Origin: Candidatus Thorarchaeota archaeon SMTZ1-83
GTDB lineage: Archaea; Asgardarchaeota; Thorarchaeia; Thorarchaeales; Thorarchaeaceae
Reading direction: 5' to 3'
DNA length: 19,232 nt
Assembly: GCA_001563325.1 (NCBI GenBank)
Contig: LRSK01000220.1
Coordinates: 1-19,232 of the forward strand
The position numbers were made by a program, and so were the translations under genes. The notes beneath the pieces are model-generated. The model had not been told where the DNA came from and did no database searches. It worked only from the letters and a program-made list of their open reading frames with translations. Positions 2,275 through 16,319 of this stretch are shown here, piece after piece (the stretch's first letter is position 1; each line of letters starts with the position of its first letter).

Positions 2275-3759
2275 ATGAGCGAATATACATCAGGCAGCAG
2301 TCGGAACATGATTATTGCTATAGTTGTAATCGTGATTATCGGTGTTGCCGGAGTAGCTTTTGTTATGCTCGGCGGTCTACCTGGACCTACGACCACAACA
2401 ACCACTACGACCACCACCACAACAACCACAACACCCCCACCAGGGCATACTCTTGAGATTCTAACTCGACATAGTGTCGCATTGCAGAATCTCTACGAAA
2501 CTGCATTCTTGGCCACCGACCTCGCGGATGATTACAACATCACTGCAATCGAGTGGTATGATCCTCCGGATGCGCAGTGGGATGATATTATTGATGCAGG
2601 CGACGCTGATGTTGTCTGGGGAGGAGGCCCGACCGTCTTCGACCAGCTGATGGTTGACAATCGCCTAGAACCACTGACCAGTACGCGGATGCAGACAGTG
2701 GAGGCGAGGGTTCCTGATGAGTTTGGTGGAGTTGACCTGAAGAGAAACAACTCGCTGAACGAAACTGCATGGATTGCCGCAGCAGTATCAACATTCGGTT
2801 TTACGACCAACAACTACTTCCTTACCCAATGGAGCCTTCCAACACCCGAAACTTGGGTGGACCTCGGTAACTGGACATATGGCAAGTATCTGCCACTTCT
2901 GCCCTCGGTTGCGATGTCAAACGCGCCCTGGTCATCGTCAAACAGGCGATGCTATGAGATTATCTCTCAAGGTTATGGATGGGACGCGGGTTGGGACCTA
3001 CTGGCGCGTATCGCGGGTAACTCCCAGTTTCCTGGCGGCTCATCGGCTGTCAAGGCCGCCGTGGACAATGGCGCAGTAGGAGTTGCATTCTCGATTGACT
3101 TCTACGGCTATCAGTCCGCATATGACCGACCCGGAGTCTGTGACTATATCGTGCCCAGCGACTACACTGTCATCAATGGAGATCCGATTGCTGTCGCCGC
3201 AACGAGTACACAGAAGGACCTCGCTGAGGTCTTTGTTGACTATGTACTATCGGCCGAGGGCCAAGCTGTCTGGCTTGATCCGAGTGCAATGAGGCTACCA
3301 GTTATCGAAGCAGCATTTGCGGAGCCTGTGCCTACCGGCAACGAGGCTTTGCATGACGCGCTTTACCTTGCATACAACACGACCAAGACTAGTACAGGAC
3401 TTGACTTCTCTGATGCTGAATCTCTTAGTGTCAGCAACTCATTCAAGTACTACTTCGAGGCTGTGTTCTACGATGCACAGACCAAGCTTGTCGAATGCTG
3501 GAACGCCATTGTGACTGCTAGGAGCAATGGCTGGATCACAGAGGCTCAAGTGGACACCTACGCAGCTGCAATGTCCCAGATAATCACTGTTGGCGACTAT
3601 AACGCTACAGTAACCGGCGGGGCATTCACATTGGCCTACGCTCAGTCAATCAACAGCTATCTGACTGAATCGGCCGTTCTGACCTGGTTCCAGAACGAAT
3701 GGACGACTCTGGCTAATGGTCAGTATGATGCAGTGAAGGCGACAGTGCCAACATCCTAG
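2275..3759 (+). CDS. Membrane-anchored ABC solute-binding protein, Fe(III)/AfuA-like, with poly-Thr linker
   Basis: The 494-residue extracytoplasmic receptor belongs to a three-gene importer. Residues 12-34 form one hydrophobic anchor with no lipobox cysteine. Next comes an unbroken run of 15 threonines (39-53) and PPPG, then the binding domain. Features recalling the AfuA/FbpA-type family (COG1840) are the early LEILTRHS strand, GDADVVWGGGPTVFDQL (about 109-125), a late GDPIAVAATSTQKDLAEVF segment and DYVLSAEGQAVW (about 322-333). Several N-x-S/T sequons would allow surface N-glycosylation. A C-terminal extension beyond the usual family length is mostly helical. The ATG has GAGGAGTG 6-13 bases upstream. 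The permease gene follows after 42 bases. The substrate could be ferric iron, thiamine or another small anion; the sequence does not decide. Confidence 0.82.
   Translation: MSEYTSGSSRNMIIAIVVIVIIGVAGVAFVMLGGLPGPTTTTTTTTTTTTTTTPPPGHTLEILTRHSVALQNLYETAFLATDLADDYNITAIEWYDPPDAQWDDIIDAGDADVVWGGGPTVFDQLMVDNRLEPLTSTRMQTVEARVPDEFGGVDLKRNNSLNETAWIAAAVSTFGFTTNNYFLTQWSLPTPETWVDLGNWTYGKYLPLLPSVAMSNAPWSSSNRRCYEIISQGYGWDAGWDLLARIAGNSQFPGGSSAVKAAVDNGAVGVAFSIDFYGYQSAYDRPGVCDYIVPSDYTVINGDPIAVAATSTQKDLAEVFVDYVLSAEGQAVWLDPSAMRLPVIEAAFAEPVPTGNEALHDALYLAYNTTKTSTGLDFSDAESLSVSNSFKYYFEAVFYDAQTKLVECWNAIVTARSNGWITEAQVDTYAAAMSQIITVGDYNATVTGGAFTLAYAQSINSYLTESAVLTWFQNEWTTLANGQYDAVKATVPTS
2389..2433 (+). repeat. Poly-threonine codon run (15 ACN codons)
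   Basis: Fifteen consecutive ACN codons use ACG, ACC, ACA and ACT in irregular order. Because the third bases vary, this is not a fresh trinucleotide expansion. It encodes the stalk between the membrane anchor and the binding domain, and is probably an O-glycosylated spacer across the cell envelope. Confidence 0.85.
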
Positions 3760-3801
3760 ACATAGTCTCAACTGAGAAACGATGAAAGGCGTCGGAGTTC
3801 A

Positions 3802-5895
3802 TTGAGCTCTAGCGAAGAAATCGAAGCACAAGATACAGACACCCTTGAGGTTGATTCCGAGCTCGTTCCGGCTGATCGTCGGAGCGTTCTGGTGAGCTAC
3901 CTCAAGGGTGCTCCCTTTAAGATAGCTTCAGCGTTCTCACGAAGAGTCAGGGCTGCAGGTTCTTTCATCATTCGTGGCGTTAGGCGATTTGGGGGTTTCT
4001 TTAGGCACCCCTTGACTAACAGTCGCCAGTTGGCTTCCAGATCTAGGACAAGAATTCGTGCTGGCGCACGGCAAATACGTCGTGAGCTGGACGCCCTCAC
4101 TACAATTCAACTCGTTGCGGTCATAGGAGTCTTCACCACATTCCTTGTATTGCCTATCCTGAGTGTGGTGGTGTTTTCCTTCCAAGATGCTGCTGGAGGG
4201 TTCACACTAGACCATATCGCCAGTCTCTTCAGAGACCCAAACATCTGGCCTTTCATATTCAATCAGGCTACTGGCAACATAGACTTCCGAGCAAACCTTA
4301 ACGGTGCGGGCTTTCTCCCAGCGGTCAATCTCTTGGCAATCTGGGGTCCCGACCTGGGAGCCATTTTCAACTCGATTTACGTCGCTATTATTGTTACCGC
4401 GGCTTCTATTCTCCTTGGAGTCTTCTTTGCTTTCATAATAGCACGATACGAATTCGTGGGAAAGAGAGTGATTCGTACACTCTTGATATTTCCAATCCTG
4501 GCAATCCCATTTGTTGGTGCTATTGGCATCAAAGTCTTCTTGGGATTTGATGGGTTCATCAACAAGCTGTTCTATGATACGTTACACATTCTGCCGGTTC
4601 GCATATGGTTGCGAGGACTTGCTGCAATGATATTCGTACAGTCGTTCTCATTATTCTCGTTGGTCTATCTAAACGCATACTCTTCGTTTATGAGCATAGA
4701 TCCATCTTTAGAGGAGCAAGCCGAGAATCTAGGTGCAACAGGGTTCCGGTTGTTTCGGTCTGTTACACTTCCCCTAGCAATGCCTGGAATTCAGGCTGGA
4801 GCTATCTTGACATTCATTCTCAGCATCGAGGATCTTGGTTCGCCTATCGTCTTCCAAGATCACCAATCAGCCAGAAACACTCTTGCCTTTCAAGTCTGGG
4901 CGAATGTCGCAACTCAATCGGGCCAAGTCGATCCTAAAGGACCTGCGATAGGTATCTTGCTTCTTGTGTTCGCACTCGTGGGGTTTATAGCTATTCGGAA
5001 ATACACGTCGTTGAGGTCCTATGATTCCGGAACCAAAGGTGGACAATGGAACCCGAGGACCAGAAGAATAAGCAGGAGGGCGACACTACTACTGTATGCC
5101 ATTCTGATTCCTGTTCTGTTTCTTGCTCTAATACCTCAAATCAGTGTCATCATGATTTCGTTGGCTGGAGACTGGGCACCTACCAGCCTATTCCCTAATG
5201 AATGGACTCTGAGCAACTATGATGTGTTATGGGCATTTCCTGATGTGGCAAACTCGGTGAATGTCACGCTTACGTATGGGGTGATTGCTACCATAATCAT
5301 CGTACTCCTGGGGTCAAGCGCTGCCTACATAATTGCCAGAAAGGACATCCCCGGTAGGACTGCACTTGACTTGCTTGTCACTTCGCCAATTGCTCTTCCT
5401 GGAATCGTGATTGCCACAGGATTCTTCACGCTATATTATGCTACTCCGATATTCCCATCGGGGCATCCTGCCTTTCTCATAGTCATGTCATATGCGGTGC
5501 GTAAGTTTCCGTTCACGGTCAGAGCGGCGTACGCAGGGATAATGTCTACGCCTGTCATTCTTGAAGAAGCATCTCAGAACTTGGGGGCCAGCAAGAACAG
5601 AACCTTCGTCAAGATCACTCTCCCCCTCATAGGTGTAAGTGTTCTTGCTGGATCACTTCTTTCATTTGTGTATTCAGTGAGCGAGGTTAGCACGAGTCTG
5701 ATATTAGGGAGTGTTGGGCACTCAGAAGCACCCATGACATATTGGACATCTCGAGTGCTGGATATGATTGGACCCTACGGTGGGCCGGCCAGTGCGTCCT
5801 GCTTAGGAGTTGTACTAATGAGTATGCAATGGATTGTTATTACGGTGACCAACAGAATCCTGGGAGCTAGGTCCGCTGCTATTACAGGCATCTGA
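3802..5895 (+). CDS. ABC transporter permease, two fused transmembrane domains (FbpB/ThiP type)
   Basis: A 697-residue inner-membrane component carrying two MetI-like permease domains in one chain, as in Fe(III) and thiamine importers (COG1178). Domain 1 spans about 103-400 and its EAA loop is at 303-330 (EEQAENLGATGFRLFRSVTL then P-x-x-x-P-G). Domain 2 spans about 427-690 with its EAA loop at 588-610 (LEEASQNLGASKNRTFVKIT then LP). Both loops keep the Gly and the LP pair that dock on the ATPase. About 100 residues precede the first membrane helix: acidic to residue 20, then strongly Arg/Lys-rich. The start is TTG at 3802 with GGAG at 3794-3797; no upstream ATG or GTG is available in frame after the TAG at 3763. 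The ATPase gene starts one base after the stop. Confidence 0.9.
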   Translation: MSSSEEIEAQDTDTLEVDSELVPADRRSVLVSYLKGAPFKIASAFSRRVRAAGSFIIRGVRRFGGFFRHPLTNSRQLASRSRTRIRAGARQIRRELDALTTIQLVAVIGVFTTFLVLPILSVVVFSFQDAAGGFTLDHIASLFRDPNIWPFIFNQATGNIDFRANLNGAGFLPAVNLLAIWGPDLGAIFNSIYVAIIVTAASILLGVFFAFIIARYEFVGKRVIRTLLIFPILAIPFVGAIGIKVFLGFDGFINKLFYDTLHILPVRIWLRGLAAMIFVQSFSLFSLVYLNAYSSFMSIDPSLEEQAENLGATGFRLFRSVTLPLAMPGIQAGAILTFILSIEDLGSPIVFQDHQSARNTLAFQVWANVATQSGQVDPKGPAIGILLLVFALVGFIAIRKYTSLRSYDSGTKGGQWNPRTRRISRRATLLLYAILIPVLFLALIPQISVIMISLAGDWAPTSLFPNEWTLSNYDVLWAFPDVANSVNVTLTYGVIATIIIVLLGSSAAYIIARKDIPGRTALDLLVTSPIALPGIVIATGFFTLYYATPIFPSGHPAFLIVMSYAVRKFPFTVRAAYAGIMSTPVILEEASQNLGASKNRTFVKITLPLIGVSVLAGSLLSFVYSVSEVSTSLILGSVGHSEAPMTYWTSRVLDMIGPYGGPASASCLGVVLMSMQWIVITVTNRILGARSAAITGI

Positions 5896-5896
5896 G

Positions 5897-7066
5897 GTGA
5901 ACAACTTGGTAGAGATTAGAATGGAGAACTTGCGTAAGACTTTCGGTGATGTTGTCGCAACTGATGAAGTGAACATGATTCTTGAAGAAGAGGAGCTTTC
6001 TACCCTCCTCGGTCCATCAGGATGCGGAAAAACAACTCTTCTACGTCTGATTGCTGGTTTCTACGCACCAGACCGAGGCAAAATATACTTCGACGATAGA
6101 GACGTGACAGGGGTGCCCCCGCATAAGAGGAACACAGGAATGTGCTTCCAAAACTATGCCCTCTGGCCCCACATGTCAGTGTCTGATAATGTAGCATACG
6201 GGCTGAAGTTGAAGCGAATCAACGGAATGAAGTACACCAAGAGTGCAATTGAACGGCGAGTGGGCGAGGCACTCAGTCTTGTGCGGATGGAAGACCTAGG
6301 GCATCGGCACATACATCAGTTGTCGGGTGGCCAGCAGCAGCGTGTGGCGCTTGCACGGGCGCTGGTGATAGAGCCAGGTGTTCTCTTATTGGACGAACCT
6401 CTATCGAACCTTGATGCAAAGCTGCGGGTCGAGATGAGAGAAGAGATAATCAGGATCCATAAAGAGATGTCCATAACCACAGTGTACGTCACTCATGACC
6501 AGCATGAGGCCCTGAGCATTTCGGACAGAGTTGCTGTAATGGATCAAGGTTATGTCCAGCAGTTTGGGACGCCACGGGAAATCTACGAAAGGCCACAGAC
6601 GGTGTTCGTCGCAGACTTCATCGGGCAATGCACTTTCATCGAGGGTGTTGTTGAATCAGCTGGAGAACGCATCAAGGTCAGAATCCCAAACGATCAGATT
6701 GTCACAGGGAGAACAACCATCGGCGGCTATCCCTTTGAGGTTGACGAACAGGTAAAATGCGCGATGAGGCCAGAGGACCTCCATCTGAACCGAGAAAGTC
6801 CGACAGACAACGAGATAACGGGAGATGTAACACGGACAATCTATGTGGGTAATGCGCTGGAACTCTACTTCAAGGTGGGAGACCTGGCTGCACAAGCACT
6901 GCTAGAACCTGATGCCGGACTCAAGAGAGGTGACAAAGTGACCCTATATGCTCCTGAGTCTGAAGTGATGATTCTTCCAATTGGCGGTGTAGAAGCATTG
7001 AGGAAGGTGCCAGGTCACCCTATGTCCACGAGTGCGCCGCCGACTAGAGTTCCCGCGAATGTCTAG
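5897..7066 (+). CDS. ABC transporter ATP-binding protein (FbpC/PotA type)
   Basis: The 389-residue cytoplasmic ATPase powers the importer. Walker A GPSGCGKT is at 39-46, the Q-loop is at Q85 (CFQNYALWPH), the signature LSGGQQQR is at 142-149, Walker B VLLLDEP with the D-loop SNLD is at 162-173, and the switch histidine is H200 (VTHDQHEA). A C-terminal region of about 150 residues (ADFIGQCTFIEGVV onward) is the TOBE-type regulatory domain usual in FbpC/ModC/PotA proteins. Start is GTG at 5897, one base after the permease stop, which implies translational coupling. An internal ATG eight codons in is possible but would cut the first beta strand. The 3' end overlaps the convergent transglycosylase gene by 23 bases. 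Family certain, substrate not. Confidence 0.92.
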   Translation: MNNLVEIRMENLRKTFGDVVATDEVNMILEEEELSTLLGPSGCGKTTLLRLIAGFYAPDRGKIYFDDRDVTGVPPHKRNTGMCFQNYALWPHMSVSDNVAYGLKLKRINGMKYTKSAIERRVGEALSLVRMEDLGHRHIHQLSGGQQQRVALARALVIEPGVLLLDEPLSNLDAKLRVEMREEIIRIHKEMSITTVYVTHDQHEALSISDRVAVMDQGYVQQFGTPREIYERPQTVFVADFIGQCTFIEGVVESAGERIKVRIPNDQIVTGRTTIGGYPFEVDEQVKCAMRPEDLHLNRESPTDNEITGDVTRTIYVGNALELYFKVGDLAAQALLEPDAGLKRGDKVTLYAPESEVMILPIGGVEALRKVPGHPMSTSAPPTRVPANV

Positions 7067-10533: not shown

Positions 10534-11469
10534 ATGCTTCCAAAGACTCACCTAAGGGAACTACTAGAGCGCGGTCATTTTGTAGTGACAGCCGAAGTCG
10601 GGCCTCCTCAAGGTTCTGATGCAGCTTTGGTGGCTGAGCGAGTTGAAATGATCAGGAATCACTGTGATGCGATAAACGTCACAGATAATCCTCTGGGCGT
10701 CCCACGGATGAGCAGCTTGGCCTGCGCTCGTCTCATAATAGACGCGGGTGTTGAGCCGATAATGCATATAGCGACTCGCAGCCGGAGTGAGATGTTGCTC
10801 CAAAGCGAGCTCTTCGGTGCGTCTGCACTTGGAATCCGAAATCTGCTGTTCATCACTGGTGATGAAGCCGTGGCGAAGGTTGAGCCACGGTCAGGTATAG
10901 TGCCAGAGATGGACTCAGTAGGAGGTCTAGGGCTAGCCAGCACGCTGATGAAAGGTACGAACTCCGAGGGAGAGGAAATCGCAGGTTCCCCGTCCTTCTT
11001 CCTAGGATCTACTTTCAATCCCTACGCACAGTCAACGGACGAGGAAATCCGTCGGATTGAACAGAAGCGCAATGCAGGTGCTCAGTTCTTCCAGACTCAG
11101 GCCGTGTACGGAGTCGAGCGGTTCCGAGACTTCACGGAAAAGATAGAGAATCTTGATGTGAGAGTGCTTGCAGGAATAGTACCCCTTCAGGGGTCTGAGA
11201 TGGCAGAATACATGAACACACACGTTCCTGGTATTCAGATATCTGACGCAATCATTGCCCGGCTCCGTGATGCTGAAGAGGGTCTGGCGGATGAAGAACT
11301 CCTGAATGCAGGCAGAGCTGAGGGACTTCTCATTGCAGCAGAAACCGTAGACGAGATTCGCAGCCTGAAGGGAGTGGACGGAATTCACATAATGGGTATT
11401 GGATGGTACGAGAGCATTCTACAGACAGTGGAGCGTTCCAGACTTCACCCAAGACCAACAAGAGGATGA
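10534..11469 (+). CDS. MetF-like 5,10-methylene-tetrahydropterin reductase
   Basis: A flavin-dependent TIM barrel that reduces methylene-pterin to methyl-pterin. The 311-residue protein has TAEVGPP at 19-25, where E21 corresponds to the catalytic Glu of the MetF family. It also has AINVTDNP (46-53), LLFITGD (104-110), GSTFNPYAQ (158-166), and FFQTQAVY (185-192), equivalent to the family's substrate-binding F-x-Q-T/P strand. Archaea with tetrahydromethanopterin normally use the unrelated F420-dependent Mer, so a MetF-type enzyme beside mtrH and mtrA suggests that this lineage makes the methyl group either on tetrahydrofolate or on a pterin with MetF. No partner such as MetV is visible. It heads the methyl-transfer run, with mtrH-like 1 starting 6 bases after its stop. 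The start at 10534 is the first ATG; its ribosome-binding sequence is weak. Confidence 0.85.
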   Translation: MLPKTHLRELLERGHFVVTAEVGPPQGSDAALVAERVEMIRNHCDAINVTDNPLGVPRMSSLACARLIIDAGVEPIMHIATRSRSEMLLQSELFGASALGIRNLLFITGDEAVAKVEPRSGIVPEMDSVGGLGLASTLMKGTNSEGEEIAGSPSFFLGSTFNPYAQSTDEEIRRIEQKRNAGAQFFQTQAVYGVERFRDFTEKIENLDVRVLAGIVPLQGSEMAEYMNTHVPGIQISDAIIARLRDAEEGLADEELLNAGRAEGLLIAAETVDEIRSLKGVDGIHIMGIGWYESILQTVERSRLHPRPTRG

Positions 11470-11475
11470 AAGACG

Positions 11476-12393
11476 ATGTTTGTCTTCAAAAAGGAACAGA
11501 AATCGTTCGATTTCGGAGGCGTCACAATTGGCGGCCAGCCAGGCGAGAACCCGACGGTCCTCGTAGGAGGTCTATTCTTCGCTGGGCAGCCAATTGTTGA
11601 GGACACGAAGCAGGGCACATTCGACAAGAGCCTGGCCAAGGAATGGATTGACAGCGGAATCAGTATGTCGGAGCAAACCGGACATCCTCTCATAATCCAA
11701 GTGTTTGGTAGGTCTCCTACGGCAATGAACCGCCATCTGCAGTGGTTGGTTGAGAACTTTGATGGGCCTTTCATCTTCGAATCCACATCGGCCAAGACAC
11801 GAACAAGTGCAATCCAGTTTTGCGATGAATCTGGTCTTAGCGACCGTGCCATCTACAACTCCGTTAACATGGCTCTCAAGGAGGATGAGAAGGAAATCCT
11901 GAAGGCAAGCTCAATCAACAATGCAATTGTGCTTGGCTGGTCGCCCAAGAGCGTGCCGTTGAATGAACGGATGGATACAATCAGAGAGCTGGTGTCTGAG
12001 GCCGAGCGTCTTGGAATAGGCAAGATGGCCGTGGATCCTGCAACTATGCCAGTAGGAGCTGGATTCGGCCTTGAGTTCCGGACTACACTTGCAATCAAAT
12101 CGGAAATCGGTCTACCCACATGTCTTGCTCCTCACAATGCTCCGTCTTCTTGGAGCTTCATCAAAGAAGGAGTACTCGGTGATGAGCCGACCTATCTCTC
12201 TGCGGTCGTAGCCTCGACAGTTGCCGCACAACTCTTTGCCACAGACTGCCTGATGTATGGATCGATGGTCAGAACCAAGGCGGTGTTTGCGGCTGTGGCC
12301 CTCATTTCCAATGCCATTCATTCTGCAGCTATAGAGGCAGGTCAAACACTTGGGATTGACAGAGCGCTATTCGAACCCATCACTAAAGAATAG
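11476..12393 (+). CDS. MtrH-like methyltransferase, copy 1 (divergent)
   Basis: A homologue of subunit H of tetrahydromethanopterin S-methyltransferase, the subunit that moves the methyl group between methyl-pterin and the corrinoid protein. In 305 residues it keeps PGENPTVLVGGLFFAGQPIV (22-41), a FDKSLAKEW helix, the TGHP turn, the PFIFEST strand, GLSDRAIYNSVN (about 125-136) and the late APHNAPSSWSF segment. It departs from the family where LAFNPQDPS-type residues are usual (GWSPKSVPLNER here) and in the C-terminal YGPIE region (MYGSMVRTKAVF here). It is therefore the more divergent of the two copies and may use another pterin or partner. GAGGATGA lies a few bases before the ATG. The mtrA-like gene follows after 12 bases. 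Confidence 0.88.
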   Translation: MFVFKKEQKSFDFGGVTIGGQPGENPTVLVGGLFFAGQPIVEDTKQGTFDKSLAKEWIDSGISMSEQTGHPLIIQVFGRSPTAMNRHLQWLVENFDGPFIFESTSAKTRTSAIQFCDESGLSDRAIYNSVNMALKEDEKEILKASSINNAIVLGWSPKSVPLNERMDTIRELVSEAERLGIGKMAVDPATMPVGAGFGLEFRTTLAIKSEIGLPTCLAPHNAPSSWSFIKEGVLGDEPTYLSAVVASTVAAQLFATDCLMYGSMVRTKAVFAAVALISNAIHSAAIEAGQTLGIDRALFEPITKE

Positions 12394-12405
12394 GAATCGG
12401 TTACC

Positions 12406-12792
12406 ATGTCAGGGAACAAGACGAAATGGCCACCAATCTCCGGAGACTTTGAGGTTGGAGACCCCTCAGGTTGTGTGGCAGTCTGCACTCTGGGGAAGAA
12501 GGTTCGCGTTGATGCAGACTATGCAATCATCGGTACCTGCAAGACGGAGAACATCGGCATCGAACGTGTAATTGTCAATGTCATCTCCAACAGTTACGTG
12601 CGTTTTCTAATCCTCGCTGGTCCAGAGGTACCGGGTCACCTCACTGGATCATCTCTAAGGTGTCTCTATGAGCAAGGCATCGATTCGGACACAAGGAAGA
12701 TAATAGATGCCCCAGGTGCAATACCGTACATCGAGAACATACCAATAGAGGCTGTGGAGAGATTCCGGAGTCAGATAGAGTTCGTAATCTGA
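12406..12792 (+). CDS. MtrA-like corrinoid protein, cobalamin-binding domain only
   Basis: A homologue of subunit A of the methanogen methyltransferase, which carries the corrinoid that accepts the methyl group. The 128-residue frame has WPPISGDFEVGDPSGCVAV (8-26), CKTENIGIERVIVNVISNSY (45-64), FLILAGPEVPGHLTGSSL (67-84) and GAIPYIENIPIEAVERF (about 105-121). His78 in GHLTG corresponds to the family's cobalt-ligating His. Methanogen MtrA is about 240 residues with a C-terminal membrane anchor; this frame stops at TGA 12790-12792 right after the cobalamin domain. The next bases, read one frame earlier, continue with what looks like the MtrA tail, so the gene appears shortened by a frame change. 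An mtrH homologue lies on each side. Whether the short protein is functional is open. Confidence 0.88.
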   Translation: MSGNKTKWPPISGDFEVGDPSGCVAVCTLGKKVRVDADYAIIGTCKTENIGIERVIVNVISNSYVRFLILAGPEVPGHLTGSSLRCLYEQGIDSDTRKIIDAPGAIPYIENIPIEAVERFRSQIEFVI

Positions 12793-13065
12793 ATGCAAGG
12801 AATCCGGGGACGTACCCAGAGGAGGCCATTTGGATTGACTTTGCTGCAGTATCAAGACCTGCGACTGCCGTGGCTCTTAGAGCATCAATCTCTCTCTTGC
12901 CTGAGTATCGAGTATCACTTGACCCATCATCTTCAATCGTGGCAAGAAACGAGGCCCGCGCAATCATCGGCCCGCGCAATCATCTCTGTTCATCCGACAT
13001 TCGTGGGTGCTGAAACAAGGGCCACGGATCCTGGAACAATAAGTGTAGGAAAGGAGTTGAAGTAG
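12783..13065 (+). pseudogene. Frame-broken MtrA-like tail with 16-bp tandem duplication
   Basis: Read in the frame of base 12783, this stretch gives RNLNARNPGTYPEEAIWIDF and then about 40 further residues to NEARAII at 12968. The phrase N-P-G-T-Y-P-E-E-A-x-x-I resembles the K-D-P-G-A-F-x-E-E-A-x-V segment after the cobalamin domain of methanogen MtrA. At 12969-12984 the preceding 16 bases are repeated exactly; this shifts the frame and brings a TGA at 13011-13013. Omitting one copy joins NEARAII to SVHPTFVGAETRATDPGTIS and runs to a TAG at 13063-13065, two bases before the next gene's ATG. The frame-1 reading (ATG 12793, 90 residues) is Arg-rich and unlike a natural protein until after the repeat. 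No transmembrane stretch is present even in the repaired tail. Could be true decay, a recent mutation or an assembly error. Confidence 0.65.
12953..12984 (+). repeat. Exact 16-bp tandem duplication
   Basis: The unit GGCCCGCGCAATCATC occurs at 12953-12968 and again at 12969-12984 with no spacer and no mismatch. Sixteen is not a multiple of three, so it acts as a +1 frameshift in the MtrA-like tail. Confidence 0.95.
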
Positions 13066-13066
13066 T

Positions 13067-14002
13067 ATGTTCTTCTTTGAGAAGGAGCAATACATCTACA
13101 ATGTTGGTGGAGTCAAGGTTGGAGGCAATCTTGGGGAAACACCGACTGTGCTTGTTGGCACTATCTTCTATGGCGGTCACAAGATTGTTAGAGATGCCGC
13201 CAAGGGGGAGATTGACAAGAAGACTGCCGAGGACATGATCATCACTCAGATTGAAATGTCTGACACTACTGGGAATCCAGCGATGGTTCAGGTCTTCTCC
13301 GAGTACAACTCAGCCATGGAGAAGTATCTAGACTTCATCGCCGGATTGACAGACGCTCCATTCCTCATCGACTCCACGCAGCCAGGGGTGAGAATAGCAG
13401 GTCTCCGATACACTGAGGAAGTGGGACTTGTCGATAGGGCGGTCTATAACTCTATCAATGTTGCAGCATCGGAGGACGAGATTGAGGCTCTTCGTGACAT
13501 TCGGCATGACTGCGCGATAGTACTGGCCTTCAATCCACAGGACCCGTCAATTGCTGGCCGAAGAGCTGTTCTTGAATCGGGGACAGCAGCTTTCGACCAA
13601 GGACTACTCAGTCTTTGTGAGGACATTGGTGTGACCAAACCACTGATTGACACTGCAATCACTGCCATGGGAGCTGGTGCTGGGTCTGCTGCCTCGTTCA
13701 CTTTCGTGGCCAAGACTATCTATGGACATCCCGTGGGTTCAGGGATTCACAATGCACCATCATCATGGACTTGGCTCCGCAAGTACAGAAAGACGAACAG
13801 GGAAGCCTTCAAGGTCTGTGACATCGCTTCTAATCTCCTGGTGCAGTCTATGGGCGCCAACTTCCTACTCTATGGCCCCATAGAGAACGCCGGCGTTGTC
13901 TTTCCTGCAGTCGCCATGGCTGATATCTTCTCTGCAGAGTCGGCACGCCTTGAAATCGGTTTGGAACCTCCTGAGAGTCATCCTTTCAAGAAGCTACTCT
14001 AA
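13067..14002 (+). CDS. MtrH-like methyltransferase, copy 2 (canonical-looking)
   Basis: The second pterin:corrinoid methyltransferase of the run has 311 residues and is closer to methanogen MtrH than copy 1. It retains GETPTVLVGTIFYGGHKIV (23-41), the MSDTTGNPAMVQV turn, PFLIDST (about 102-108), GLVDRAVYNSINV, IVLAFNPQDPSIAGRRAVLE, the GLLSLCEDIGVTKPLIDTA segment, GIHNAPSSWTWL, and GANFLLYGPIENAGVVFPAV near the C-terminus. GGAG of AAAGGAGTTG lies about 10 bases before the ATG, inside the 3' end of the broken MtrA tail. This implies that the tail and this gene were built as one polycistron. Marker-14 follows after 12 bases. Having two MtrH copies around one corrinoid protein would let two pterins, or opposite directions of transfer, share one carrier; that part is inference. 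Confidence 0.92.
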   Translation: MFFFEKEQYIYNVGGVKVGGNLGETPTVLVGTIFYGGHKIVRDAAKGEIDKKTAEDMIITQIEMSDTTGNPAMVQVFSEYNSAMEKYLDFIAGLTDAPFLIDSTQPGVRIAGLRYTEEVGLVDRAVYNSINVAASEDEIEALRDIRHDCAIVLAFNPQDPSIAGRRAVLESGTAAFDQGLLSLCEDIGVTKPLIDTAITAMGAGAGSAASFTFVAKTIYGHPVGSGIHNAPSSWTWLRKYRKTNREAFKVCDIASNLLVQSMGANFLLYGPIENAGVVFPAVAMADIFSAESARLEIGLEPPESHPFKKLL

Positions 14003-14014
14003 GATGGTGACGAG

Positions 14015-15439
14015 ATGCCCAGACAAAGATTGACCTTGCAACCACGCACTATTGGGGTCTCTTCTCTTCGAATGAAGCCGTTCTACACTGTCGCTTCAGT
14101 GGAGCTGGGCAATACCACCACAAAGTGCATCCTGATGACAACGAACTTGCAGACCGCGGAAATCTTCCAGATTGACAAGGAAATTCGGCTGACGCGAGAT
14201 GTACGGCCTCCAAAGAAAGGAGAAACTACCTTTGGTCATACAATAAGTGGAACTGCACTGACTCAGCAATCAGTTGGCGAGCTTGTTGCTGATGTTCTCA
14301 CCACAGCCCTCAAGCGTTCGCGTGTGGACATTGAAAGAGATCTCCACTTCGTAGTCAGGTCGACAGGGGTAACGGCCAGTTTTGCATCTCCAAAGGAGGT
14401 AGGAAACATGGTGAAGGCTCTGGCTGATGGATGTCTGCTGGCACGTGTCCCACCTAGGAAGATGACCGCCTCGCTCTCACCTGACAACCTTCCTCCAGGT
14501 CTACGTTCCTTCACCTGGCTGAAGAAGGTGTACTTCGATGGAGCCGTGGCCAGTTCTCTACCTCCTGCAAGCACGGAAGTCGTGGCTAACGAGATGGAGG
14601 GTGAACTGGTGACTGCAGGAATAAAGGGTGCCGCCAAGCTCACGGAGGTGGATTTCCGCAACCCTGCTATGACTCTGGATTTTGGCACGACTCTTGCCGG
14701 TCGAGTGACAGACGATAGTTATCCCTATGCAAAGACCATCGCGTCATTCGCGGGTCTGGCGGGGGCAATTCCGGATGCACTTGCAAGAGGCTCTGGGCTC
14801 GTGAATCCCAATAGTGGGTGTGTGCTGGACCTTGCCGCTCCTCCACTGAGGATTGAAAGCGTCATCAACGATGAGTGGATTGAACGAGCCCGTTCCCTCA
14901 TCCGAGTCGAAAGAGTTCCTAGTAATGTTTCTAGGTTCGGTACTGTTCCTGTGAACATGAAGGCCGCCAACGAGTCAAACGTGGTTCTCATAGGCGTGGA
15001 TGTGGGAACTGATGGTTCTGACCTGAAACCCCTGGAGCAACTGGGAGCGGAGATTACTGAGAAAGGCGGTGTAGAAACCCTACTTAGCACAATCGACCGT
15101 ACCCAGGCAGAAGTAGTTCAAAGGCTACTAACAGTAGCTGAGTCCGAGGGTCTAGTCTTGGAAGAAACCTCCCTTGGCCTTACCGGGAGATCAGTCACAA
15201 CTGGGAACAAGCCTCAGCTCATCAGTGATACGCTACACCTCGGCGACGGATCAAAATGGACAGATTCCCATCAACTCTTGTTTGTGGAAGACGGACTAGC
15301 AATGGGCGCGGCTGTTGCAGCTAGGTGCATGAACTCGATGGGCACAAGACATAATCCAATGGGCGGTAGAAAAGGTGACAAGTGCGTCATGGGGGCACGA
15401 ATGAAGCTGCAGAGAGATGACGGTGACAAACCAAGGTAA
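14015..15439 (+). CDS. Methanogenesis marker protein 14, ASKHA-like ATPase
   Basis: The 474-residue protein fits the methanogenesis marker 14 family (TIGR03285 as I recall it). Hallmarks are VELGNTTTKCI (29-39), TRDVRPPKKGE (60-70), DLHFVVRSTGV (109-119), ALADGCLLARVPPRKM (135-150), VVANEMEGEL (189-198), VDFRNPAMTLDFGTTLAGRV (212-231) and PYAKTIASFAGLAGAIPDAL (237-256). ELGNTTTK and LDFGTT look like the two phosphate-binding loops of ASKHA ATPases, the fold used by corrinoid re-activators such as RACo. A role in re-reducing or maturing the neighbouring MtrA corrinoid is inference; no iron-sulfur domain is evident. GGTGA lies before ATG 14015; an in-frame ATG at 14072 is the alternative start. 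It ends the run, with 79 bases before cofE. Confidence 0.88.
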   Translation: MPRQRLTLQPRTIGVSSLRMKPFYTVASVELGNTTTKCILMTTNLQTAEIFQIDKEIRLTRDVRPPKKGETTFGHTISGTALTQQSVGELVADVLTTALKRSRVDIERDLHFVVRSTGVTASFASPKEVGNMVKALADGCLLARVPPRKMTASLSPDNLPPGLRSFTWLKKVYFDGAVASSLPPASTEVVANEMEGELVTAGIKGAAKLTEVDFRNPAMTLDFGTTLAGRVTDDSYPYAKTIASFAGLAGAIPDALARGSGLVNPNSGCVLDLAAPPLRIESVINDEWIERARSLIRVERVPSNVSRFGTVPVNMKAANESNVVLIGVDVGTDGSDLKPLEQLGAEITEKGGVETLLSTIDRTQAEVVQRLLTVAESEGLVLEETSLGLTGRSVTTGNKPQLISDTLHLGDGSKWTDSHQLLFVEDGLAMGAAVAARCMNSMGTRHNPMGGRKGDKCVMGARMKLQRDDGDKPR

Positions 15440-15518: not shown

Positions 15519-16319
15519 TTGCTCGTTCTTCCGATAAAGACTCGAATCATCACAGCAACCGATGACATGCTTGATGTGCTACTAGACGGTTTGCACGGCG
15601 CAGGCATCGAGATTCAAGACCAGGACATATTGGCCGTTGCGGAGACCCCCTTGGGTACCACGGAAGGGCGAGCTGTCAAGTTGTCAGATGTTGAAGTATC
15701 ATCAAAGGCACACGAGCTCTCAGAACAATTCGACCTCCTGCCGGAGGTCGCTCAGCTTGTTATCGAGGAAGCCGATGAGATACTGGGGGGAATCCCTCAT
15801 GTGTTGCTCACAATAAAGAACAACACACTCATGGCAAACGCTGGAGTCGACAAGTCCAACGTGCCTGCAGGTTTCGCATCTCTACTGCCATTAGACTCAC
15901 GAGATAGCGCTGAGAGGATAAGACAAGGGGTCAAGAAGCGTCTGGGGAAAGACGTTGGAGTTCTTGTCATCGACAGTAGGACTCAGCCCCTCAGACTGGG
16001 TAACATCGGCATGGCACTGGGTGTGGCAGGGTTCAAACCAGTGGCTGATGACCGCGGAAGAGAAGACCTGTTTGGTAATGAGCTGAGGGTAACACGAAGG
16101 GCAGTCGCTGACAATCTAGCTTCAGCATGCACCGCCTTGATGGGAGAGTCTAACGAGTCCATACCGGCTGTCCTGATACGAGATGCTCCTGTTGAGTTTG
16201 TGGACGAATCCTTTGATTCCTCTGACATGTGGATAGATGTTGCTGAGTGCATGTACATGGCGATATTCGAGCGGTGGAGGAAAGGTGGCTCAGCGGCGAG
16301 GGAAACCGTGCGCGATTGA
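15519..16319 (+). CDS. cofE: Coenzyme F420-0:L-glutamate ligase
   Basis: The enzyme adds glutamate to F420-0 with GTP, a late step in making the deazaflavin cofactor F420. The 266-residue protein starts LVLPIKTRIITATDD, matching the family start. It has ETPLGTTEGRAVKL (about 42-55), NAGVDKSN (about 108-115) and LLPLDSRDSAERIR (about 121-134). It also has IGMALGVAGFKPVADDRGRE, DLFGNELRVTRRAVADNLAS and SIPAVLIRDAP near the C-terminus. The usual D-T/S-x-G-R-P-W-R-x-G loop reads DSRTQPLRLG here, losing G-R and the aromatic. The start is TTG at 15519: a TGA lies two codons upstream in frame, no ATG or GTG is available, and GGTGTG precedes it. F420 in this organism would serve oxidoreductases not seen in this window. 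Confidence 0.88.
   Translation: MLVLPIKTRIITATDDMLDVLLDGLHGAGIEIQDQDILAVAETPLGTTEGRAVKLSDVEVSSKAHELSEQFDLLPEVAQLVIEEADEILGGIPHVLLTIKNNTLMANAGVDKSNVPAGFASLLPLDSRDSAERIRQGVKKRLGKDVGVLVIDSRTQPLRLGNIGMALGVAGFKPVADDRGREDLFGNELRVTRRAVADNLASACTALMGESNESIPAVLIRDAPVEFVDESFDSSDMWIDVAECMYMAIFERWRKGGSAARETVRD

Follow-up and report, generated by a model that had tools for sequence, protein, structure and literature searches.

The window analyzed here is a 19,232-nucleotide stretch of DNA from Candidatus Thorarchaeota archaeon SMTZ1-83 (contig LRSK01000220.1). It carries five methyl-transfer genes, encoding a MetF-type methylene-pterin reductase, a divergent MtrH (MtrH1), the corrinoid protein MtrA, a canonical MtrH (MtrH2), and marker 14 (DUF2114). 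The cluster is a real, class-wide operon, and its conservation across the class places it beyond chance. We propose, with moderate confidence, that it encodes a soluble, reduced form of the methanogen Mtr complex, composed of MetF, a catalytic MtrH2, a partner MtrH1, a strand-docked MtrA, and an ATP-dependent marker 14.

Conservation was examined in 47 genomes of the class Thorarchaeia (the class of G007) and in a wider sample of 227 Asgard genomes. MtrA is found in 40 of the 47 class genomes, marker 14 in 43, and at least one of the two in 46; the only genome lacking both is 0.6 Mb in size. Marker 14 and MtrA lie on one contig within 2 kb in 37/37 genomes. The same is true of MtrA and MetF in 35 of the 37 genomes having both, with the other two at contig ends, and 39 of the 47 genomes contain a single MetF match. 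All 18 loci found with marker 14 are from Thorarchaeota, and the order MetF–MtrH1–MtrA–MtrH2–marker 14–CofE–LarC is constant in them as far as the contigs extend (marker 14 of L018 is interrupted by a run of N, and L006 has MtrH2 as two overlapping pieces). The sequence-only reading had suggested a search for conserved synteny; the order is indeed kept across the class where contigs reach.

No MtrE (PF04206) was detected in any of the 227 Asgard genomes, with both methanogen controls positive; MtrB, C, D, F, and G were not searched genome-wide. These genomes therefore contain no complete Mtr set, in keeping with the earlier observation that no MtrB–G gene accompanies the cluster. Outside the class, marker 14 occurs in only one of the Asgard genomes searched, G197, where MtrH1, MtrA, and MtrH2 are in the same order (52, 56, and 54% identity), CofE adjoins marker 14, and the contigs end before the MetF position (L098, L099). 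G197 has a canonical MtrA with a like tail and both MtrH types, as well as a second MtrA match in a 528-amino-acid (aa) frame. MtrA matches outside the class number 21; 15 are in open frames of 445–586 aa, a length that would be expected for the published MtrAH fusion.

MtrA, the two MtrH proteins, and marker 14

The corrinoid domain of MtrA is present, as judged by PF04208 and by MtrA chains in the PDB. Among the best 120 of 361 relatives of an intact Thorarchaeota MtrA, 119 are 225–236 aa long and one is 206 aa. No membrane helix is predicted in intact MtrA: with the 206-aa protein left out, 19-residue hydropathy in the tail reaches 1.6 in just 3 of 119 relatives. The absence of a membrane anchor, noted earlier for the window copy, fits the class, but the reason is not the broken tail of that copy; intact MtrA has a different tail. 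The soluble MtrA/MtrH module that had been suggested is supported. The match to TIGR01111 ends at 169–174 of 238 in five MtrA proteins scanned, and the tail beyond is β in the predicted model. A profile of the tail has a sole, weak match among solved structures, the N-terminal strand of MtrB (8q3v_B, E 0.032), and the MtrB family PF05440 is matched by 7 of 20 MtrA tails (controls: E 0.43 and none). In methanogens, this strand of MtrB docks MtrH.

MtrH residues were compared at 41 loci, each from a different genome (40 in the class, plus G197); the 30 MtrH1 and 36 MtrH2 copies spanning the relevant positions were counted, and partial ones were dropped. The catalytic Asp, which corresponds to Asp102 of MtgA and Asp103 of M. 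mazei MtrH, is Glu in 30/30 MtrH1 proteins and is kept in 35/36 MtrH2 proteins. The MtgA D102A variant is reported to be inactive (PMC7154762). Similarly, Ser/Thr32 is Gly in 30/30 MtrH1 and Thr or Ser in 36/36 MtrH2. MtrH1 keeps the remaining barrel residues (Asn, Asp, and His-Asn, with D194 being Asp in 31/31 and His-Asn present in 30/30), and Gln75 is found in 28/30. MtrH2 of the window has Thr32, Gln75, Asp102, Asn, Asp, His-Asn, and the basic patch. The tail exit patch is less basic in MtrH1, averaging 2.1 basic residues per 10 positions versus 3.6 in MtrH2.

The positions that anchor MtrB are divided between the two proteins. Among matches of at least 45% identity covering each position, the docking Arg is found in 31/31 MtrH1 and 0/38 MtrH2, while the acid at position 5 is found in 35/38 MtrH2 and 0/29 MtrH1, which have Lys instead. 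MtgA, a homodimer that works without MtrB, has neither anchor according to a published alignment (PMC7154762), and the description of the M. mazei structure holds that only the membrane-proximal MtrH of the dimer is likely to meet MtrA. The split of the anchors suggests that MtrH1 and MtrH2 form a heterodimer, with MtrH2 as the catalytic subunit, that docks on soluble MtrA. A second MtrH, or else an unlinked enzyme, had been suggested for the onward transfer of the methyl group; a role for the second MtrH is possible, but with Glu in place of the catalytic Asp, MtrH1 more closely resembles a partner that serves in docking or has altered function.

Pfam and NCBIfam assign no function to the marker 14 family. 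Its predicted model (pLDDT, the predicted local distance difference test score, of 80) matches the ASKHA ATPase fold, which is compatible with the activator role already proposed for it, that of keeping cobalt active. RACo and RamA are not among the 50 structural matches listed, an absence that excludes nothing.

These features allow us to outline a mechanism. MetF would supply methyl-pterin, and the catalytic TIM barrel, MtrH2, would transfer methyl groups between this pterin and MtrA-bound cobalamin. Judging by the MtrH2 residues, the pterin is probably of the tetrahydromethanopterin (H4MPT) type. MtrH1 would pair with MtrH2, whether to assist docking or to provide a second site of altered chemistry, and the MtrA C-terminal strand, which resembles the MtrB docking strand, would hold MtrA to the MtrH pair instead of the membrane subunits. 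Marker 14 would be an ATP-dependent maintenance factor that probably helps return oxidized corrinoid to its active state. The operon as a whole would act as a class-wide one-carbon (C1) hub, not tied to carbon monoxide dehydrogenase/acetyl-CoA synthase (CODH/ACS).

Several observations weigh against this mechanism. The match between the MtrA tail and MtrB covers just 21 residues and is statistically marginal. Scans with full-length MtrA match MtrB in 3/44 cases, equal to the unrelated family Tax (3/44); a full-length MtrA profile does not find MtrB in the PDB, only the tail profile does; and the NCBIfam MtrB models each match 1 of 20 tails, among other weak matches. For the MtrH pair, Glu in place of Asp may still be catalytic, making MtrH1 a true second methyltransferase, and the M. 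mazei account, as far as available, is silent on whether the two bridges engage one or both MtrH subunits. For marker 14, activators score no higher than FtsA or sugar-kinase-like folds, and the protein has five scattered Cys residues and no cluster motif, and thus no obvious iron–sulfur site. One genome with the module, G203, has no MetF match; HflX lies 28 bases from MtrH1 instead.

The history of the system is more tentative, and we judge the following account somewhat more likely to be wrong than right. A membrane-free Mtr would exist in at least two Asgard lineages, one of them Thorarchaeota, the MtrB strand having become the MtrA tail and the MtrH homodimer having diverged into two proteins, MtrH2 for catalysis and a noncanonical MtrH1 for docking. 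The MtrB remnant would be a fossil of a full Mtr in a methanogen-type ancestor; once the sodium pump had gone, the methyl-transfer half would have been retained as a general C1 hub. The question of methanogenic Asgard ancestors is under debate. If true, the presence of an MtrB-like strand in a soluble Mtr would count as structural evidence that a full complex once existed, and it would illustrate how the pump can disappear from such an enzyme while the methyl-transfer half stays.

Source and fate of the methyl group

The closest solved structures to MetF are methylenetetrahydrofolate reductases (E 2e-8), and the protein does not reach the equivalog cut-offs for TIGR00676, TIGR00677, and NF006396. 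MetV is not among the nine window proteins scanned; no genome-wide search for it was made. The sequence-only reading had MetF standing in place of Mer and the methyl group passing to CODH/ACS, and neither idea proved general. Mer scores over its curated cut-off in 21 of the 47 class genomes, with fragments in three more (G221, G224, and G208). Seventeen genomes have both MetF and Mer, so MetF as a simple replacement for Mer was rejected as a general account, though 22 have MetF without Mer over cut-off. CdhC is found in 18/47 (one a fragment), and no CdhC match exists in 23 of the 40 MtrA-bearing genomes; CODH/ACS as an obligate acceptor was likewise rejected as a general account. The module is not tied to CODH/ACS, and MetF is no plain Mer substitute.

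CdhC and Mer are rarely found together, which divides the methyl branch of Thorarchaeia in a way still unexplained. Mer is over cut-off in 4 of 18 genomes with CdhC versus 17 of 29 without it (Fisher p 0.019) or, counting fragments, in 5/18 versus 19/29 (p 0.017); neither value takes phylogeny or genome completeness into account. G203 (a 3.16 Mb contig in a 3.2 Mb genome; locus L100, G203:C1:2512000-2530000) contains the module together with Mer and CdhC. A near relative of the window, bin8 (L018/G018; LarC 92% and PolB 96% identical), has Mer and Mch over cut-off, with no CdhC match and no FolD over cut-off.

The CODH/ACS route of the sequence-only reading, with MetF in place of Mer and MtrAH delivering the methyl group for acetyl-CoA synthesis, matches a role hypothesized in print, the funneling of methyl groups into the Wood–Ljungdahl pathway by MtrAH. 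Canonical archaeal CODH/ACS, however, takes its methyl group from tetrahydrosarcinapterin through CdhDE without MtrA, which counts against this route, as do the 23 MtrA-bearing genomes without a CdhC match. Fourteen of the 18 CdhC genomes do lack Mer over cut-off, and 12 of those 14 have MetF (one of the 14, G208, has a Mer fragment and a CdhC fragment only), but these tallies are confounded by phylogeny and incomplete genomes. A Mer-to-MetF switch has been proposed for anaerobic methanotrophic archaea of group 1 (ANME-1; PMC9012536). On balance, we regard this route as unlikely.

FolD scores over its cut-off in 40/47 genomes and Mch in 43/47; folate-type and methanopterin-type pools are therefore both likely present. 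This would suit an exchange in which MtrH1 acts on methyl-tetrahydrofolate (methyl-H4F) made by MetF, MtrH2 acts on methyl-H4MPT, and MtrA shuttles between the pools, as would the different active sites of the two MtrH proteins and the less basic exit patch of MtrH1. However, MtrH1 lacks the catalytic Asp, and its Gln75 and His-Asn are of the methanogen type, unlike Asp75 and Ser-Asn of MtgA; the same residues weaken the case for H4F specificity of MtrH1 by likeness to MtgA. Moreover, MetF of ANME-1 has been suggested to act on H4MPT itself (PMC9012536). Such an exchange appears improbable.

Methyl-MtrA could also donate to homocysteine for methionine supply, since MtrA is the predicted methyl donor of MesA in methanogens (PMC7857596). 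The module is class-wide and independent of CODH/ACS, and no ordinary MetE or MetH was seen, with PF01717 and PF02574 each at 0/47 class genomes (E 0.001). The PF01717 search also misses Methanosarcina acetivorans, published as MesC-bearing, and is therefore insensitive; nothing was concluded about a conventional MetE/MetH partner. Repeating the search at E ≤ 10 gave 12 weak matches in 11/47 genomes, and the two proteins scanned both belong to the URO-D family. No homocysteine methylase was found either. We give this donor role a low probability. The URO-D family protein, a possible corrinoid methyltransferase relative, occurs in several Thorarchaeota genomes (L111:838-1851 and L112, scanned; L110, L115, and L120, by eye) next to a gene that looks histone-deacetylase-like by eye.

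A further option, also raised by the sequence-only reading, is demethylation of exogenous methyl compounds, in which a methyl-corrinoid supplied by methylamine-type or related systems would feed the pterin pool via MtrA/MtrH. This has been proposed for mtrH/mtrA of Hermodarchaeota, Sifarchaeia/Jordarchaeia, and Atabey-/Freyarchaeia (PMC8163825, PMC9723677, PMC11291895). No substrate methyltransferase or second corrinoid protein is among the nine window proteins scanned, and the proposal seems doubtful here.

The window copy and its neighbors

The gene coordinates, together with Pfam and NCBIfam scans of nine proteins from the window, agree with the five head-to-tail genes and family assignments read earlier from the sequence. 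The gaps between MetF, MtrH1, MtrA, MtrH2, and marker 14 are 6, 12, 274, and 12 bases, so that the 1–12 bases first given are nearly right, except for the 274 bases across the broken mtrA tail.

Table 1. Features of the operon in the window
Feature	Position	Strand	Evidence
MetF-type methylene-pterin reductase, 311 aa	10534..11469	+	PF02219 98 bits, cut-off 24
MtrH1, divergent MtrH, 305 aa	11476..12393	+	PF02007 248 bits; TIGR01114 244 bits, under cut-off 271
MtrA, N-terminal 128 aa of corrinoid domain	12406..12792	+	PF04208 163 bits, profile 6-130 of 173; PDB MtrA chains
Broken mtrA tail	12793..13066	+	Three-frame translation; comparison with intact relatives
Shifted-frame stretch SISLLPEYRVSLDPSSSIV, counterpart of the putative MtrB-like docking strand in intact MtrA	12885..12941	+	Translation; tail-profile MtrB match
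MtrH2, canonical MtrH, 311 aa	13067..14002	+	PF02007 383 bits; TIGR01114 393 bits, over cut-off 271
Marker 14/DUF2114, 474 aa, predicted ASKHA-fold ATPase	14015..15439	+	PF09887 619 bits; TIGR03285 598 bits, cut-off 274
CofE-like γ-glutamyl ligase, conserved downstream neighbor	15519..16319	+	TIGR01916 187 bits, over cut-off 180.65

Three-frame translation and comparison with intact relatives show that the break in mtrA, noticed earlier, is real in this sequence. Beyond the stop codon (12790-12792), the +2 frame encodes the tail up to about 12968, after which it returns to the first frame. The return coincides with a 16-base perfect tandem duplication (12953-12968/12969-12984), which may be an assembly artifact. 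P0245 is the closest to the window among five relatives compared. The MtrA tail is intact there and agrees with the window's shifted frame; the break is therefore either recent or an assembly error. With MtrA broken, function of the window copy is uncertain.

The gene for a LarC-like protein lies 3′ of that for the CofE-like ligase. The ligase, which may glutamylate the pterin tail or the F420 of this pathway, follows marker 14 in the Thorarchaeota loci that extend that far and also adjoins it in G197, outside the class (L099:10380-11162). Upstream, at 2275-7066, is an apparent ABC importer (binding protein, fused permease, and ATPase) recognized by eye; its permease and ATPase are also near the cluster in several relatives.

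Comparison with known systems

MtrAH without the other subunits, together with an Mtr-tied marker, m26, was reported in Thorarchaeia by Adam et al. 2022 (PMC9635834), and the core finding is therefore not new. The lineage is the same, and the MtrA, MtrH, and marker genes are probably the same, m26 perhaps being marker 14. MetF is not in the main text of that study, and no mention of two MtrH types, the MtrA tail, or the operon was found in the portions available. An MtrA–MtrB fusion is mentioned in unclassified Thaumarchaeota (PMC11237513). In the literature searched, which excluded supplements and included few subscription papers, we found no mention of the MetF operon, an MtrB-like MtrA tail, or split MtrH roles. 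What we add is the consistent set of residue differences between MtrH1 and MtrH2, the modeling of marker 14 as an ASKHA ATPase, weak indications from sequence that intact MtrA, with no predicted helix, has an MtrB-like C-terminal domain, and the finding that neither a CODH/ACS feed nor MetF for Mer is general. The MtrB-like tail and the MtrH division of labor are the parts that deserve follow-up. The system offers a few small, soluble proteins suited to expression and testing, and it gives marker 14 a testable role.

The corrinoid reductive activators RACo and RamA have an ASKHA-type ATPase fold plus an iron–sulfur domain. Marker 14 shares this fold in its predicted model, without a Cys cluster for an iron–sulfur site. 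The MtrA–MtrH fusion and separate MtrA/MtrH of Atabey-/Freyarchaeia (PMC11291895) are, like the Thorarchaeota module, nonmethanogen Asgard systems without the full complex; the fusion is described as a phylogenetically distinct clade, and marker 14 outside the class is found only in G197. MtgA of Desulfitobacterium is, like MtrH2, an MtrH-family TIM barrel, one that methylates pterin from corrinoid, but it is described as an H4F enzyme and a homodimer in which Thr and Glu occupy the two positions that anchor MtrB (PMC7154762), whereas the pterin residues of Thorarchaeota MtrH2 are methanogen-type. The methanogen complex (MtrABCDEFGH) has in common with the Thorarchaeota system the MtrA corrinoid fold, the canonical MtrH represented here by MtrH2, and marker 14, itself a methanogen family. 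The Thorarchaeota system differs in lacking MtrE, as do all 227 Asgard genomes, in an MtrA without a predicted helix, in two diverged MtrH proteins, and in the inclusion of MetF in the operon.

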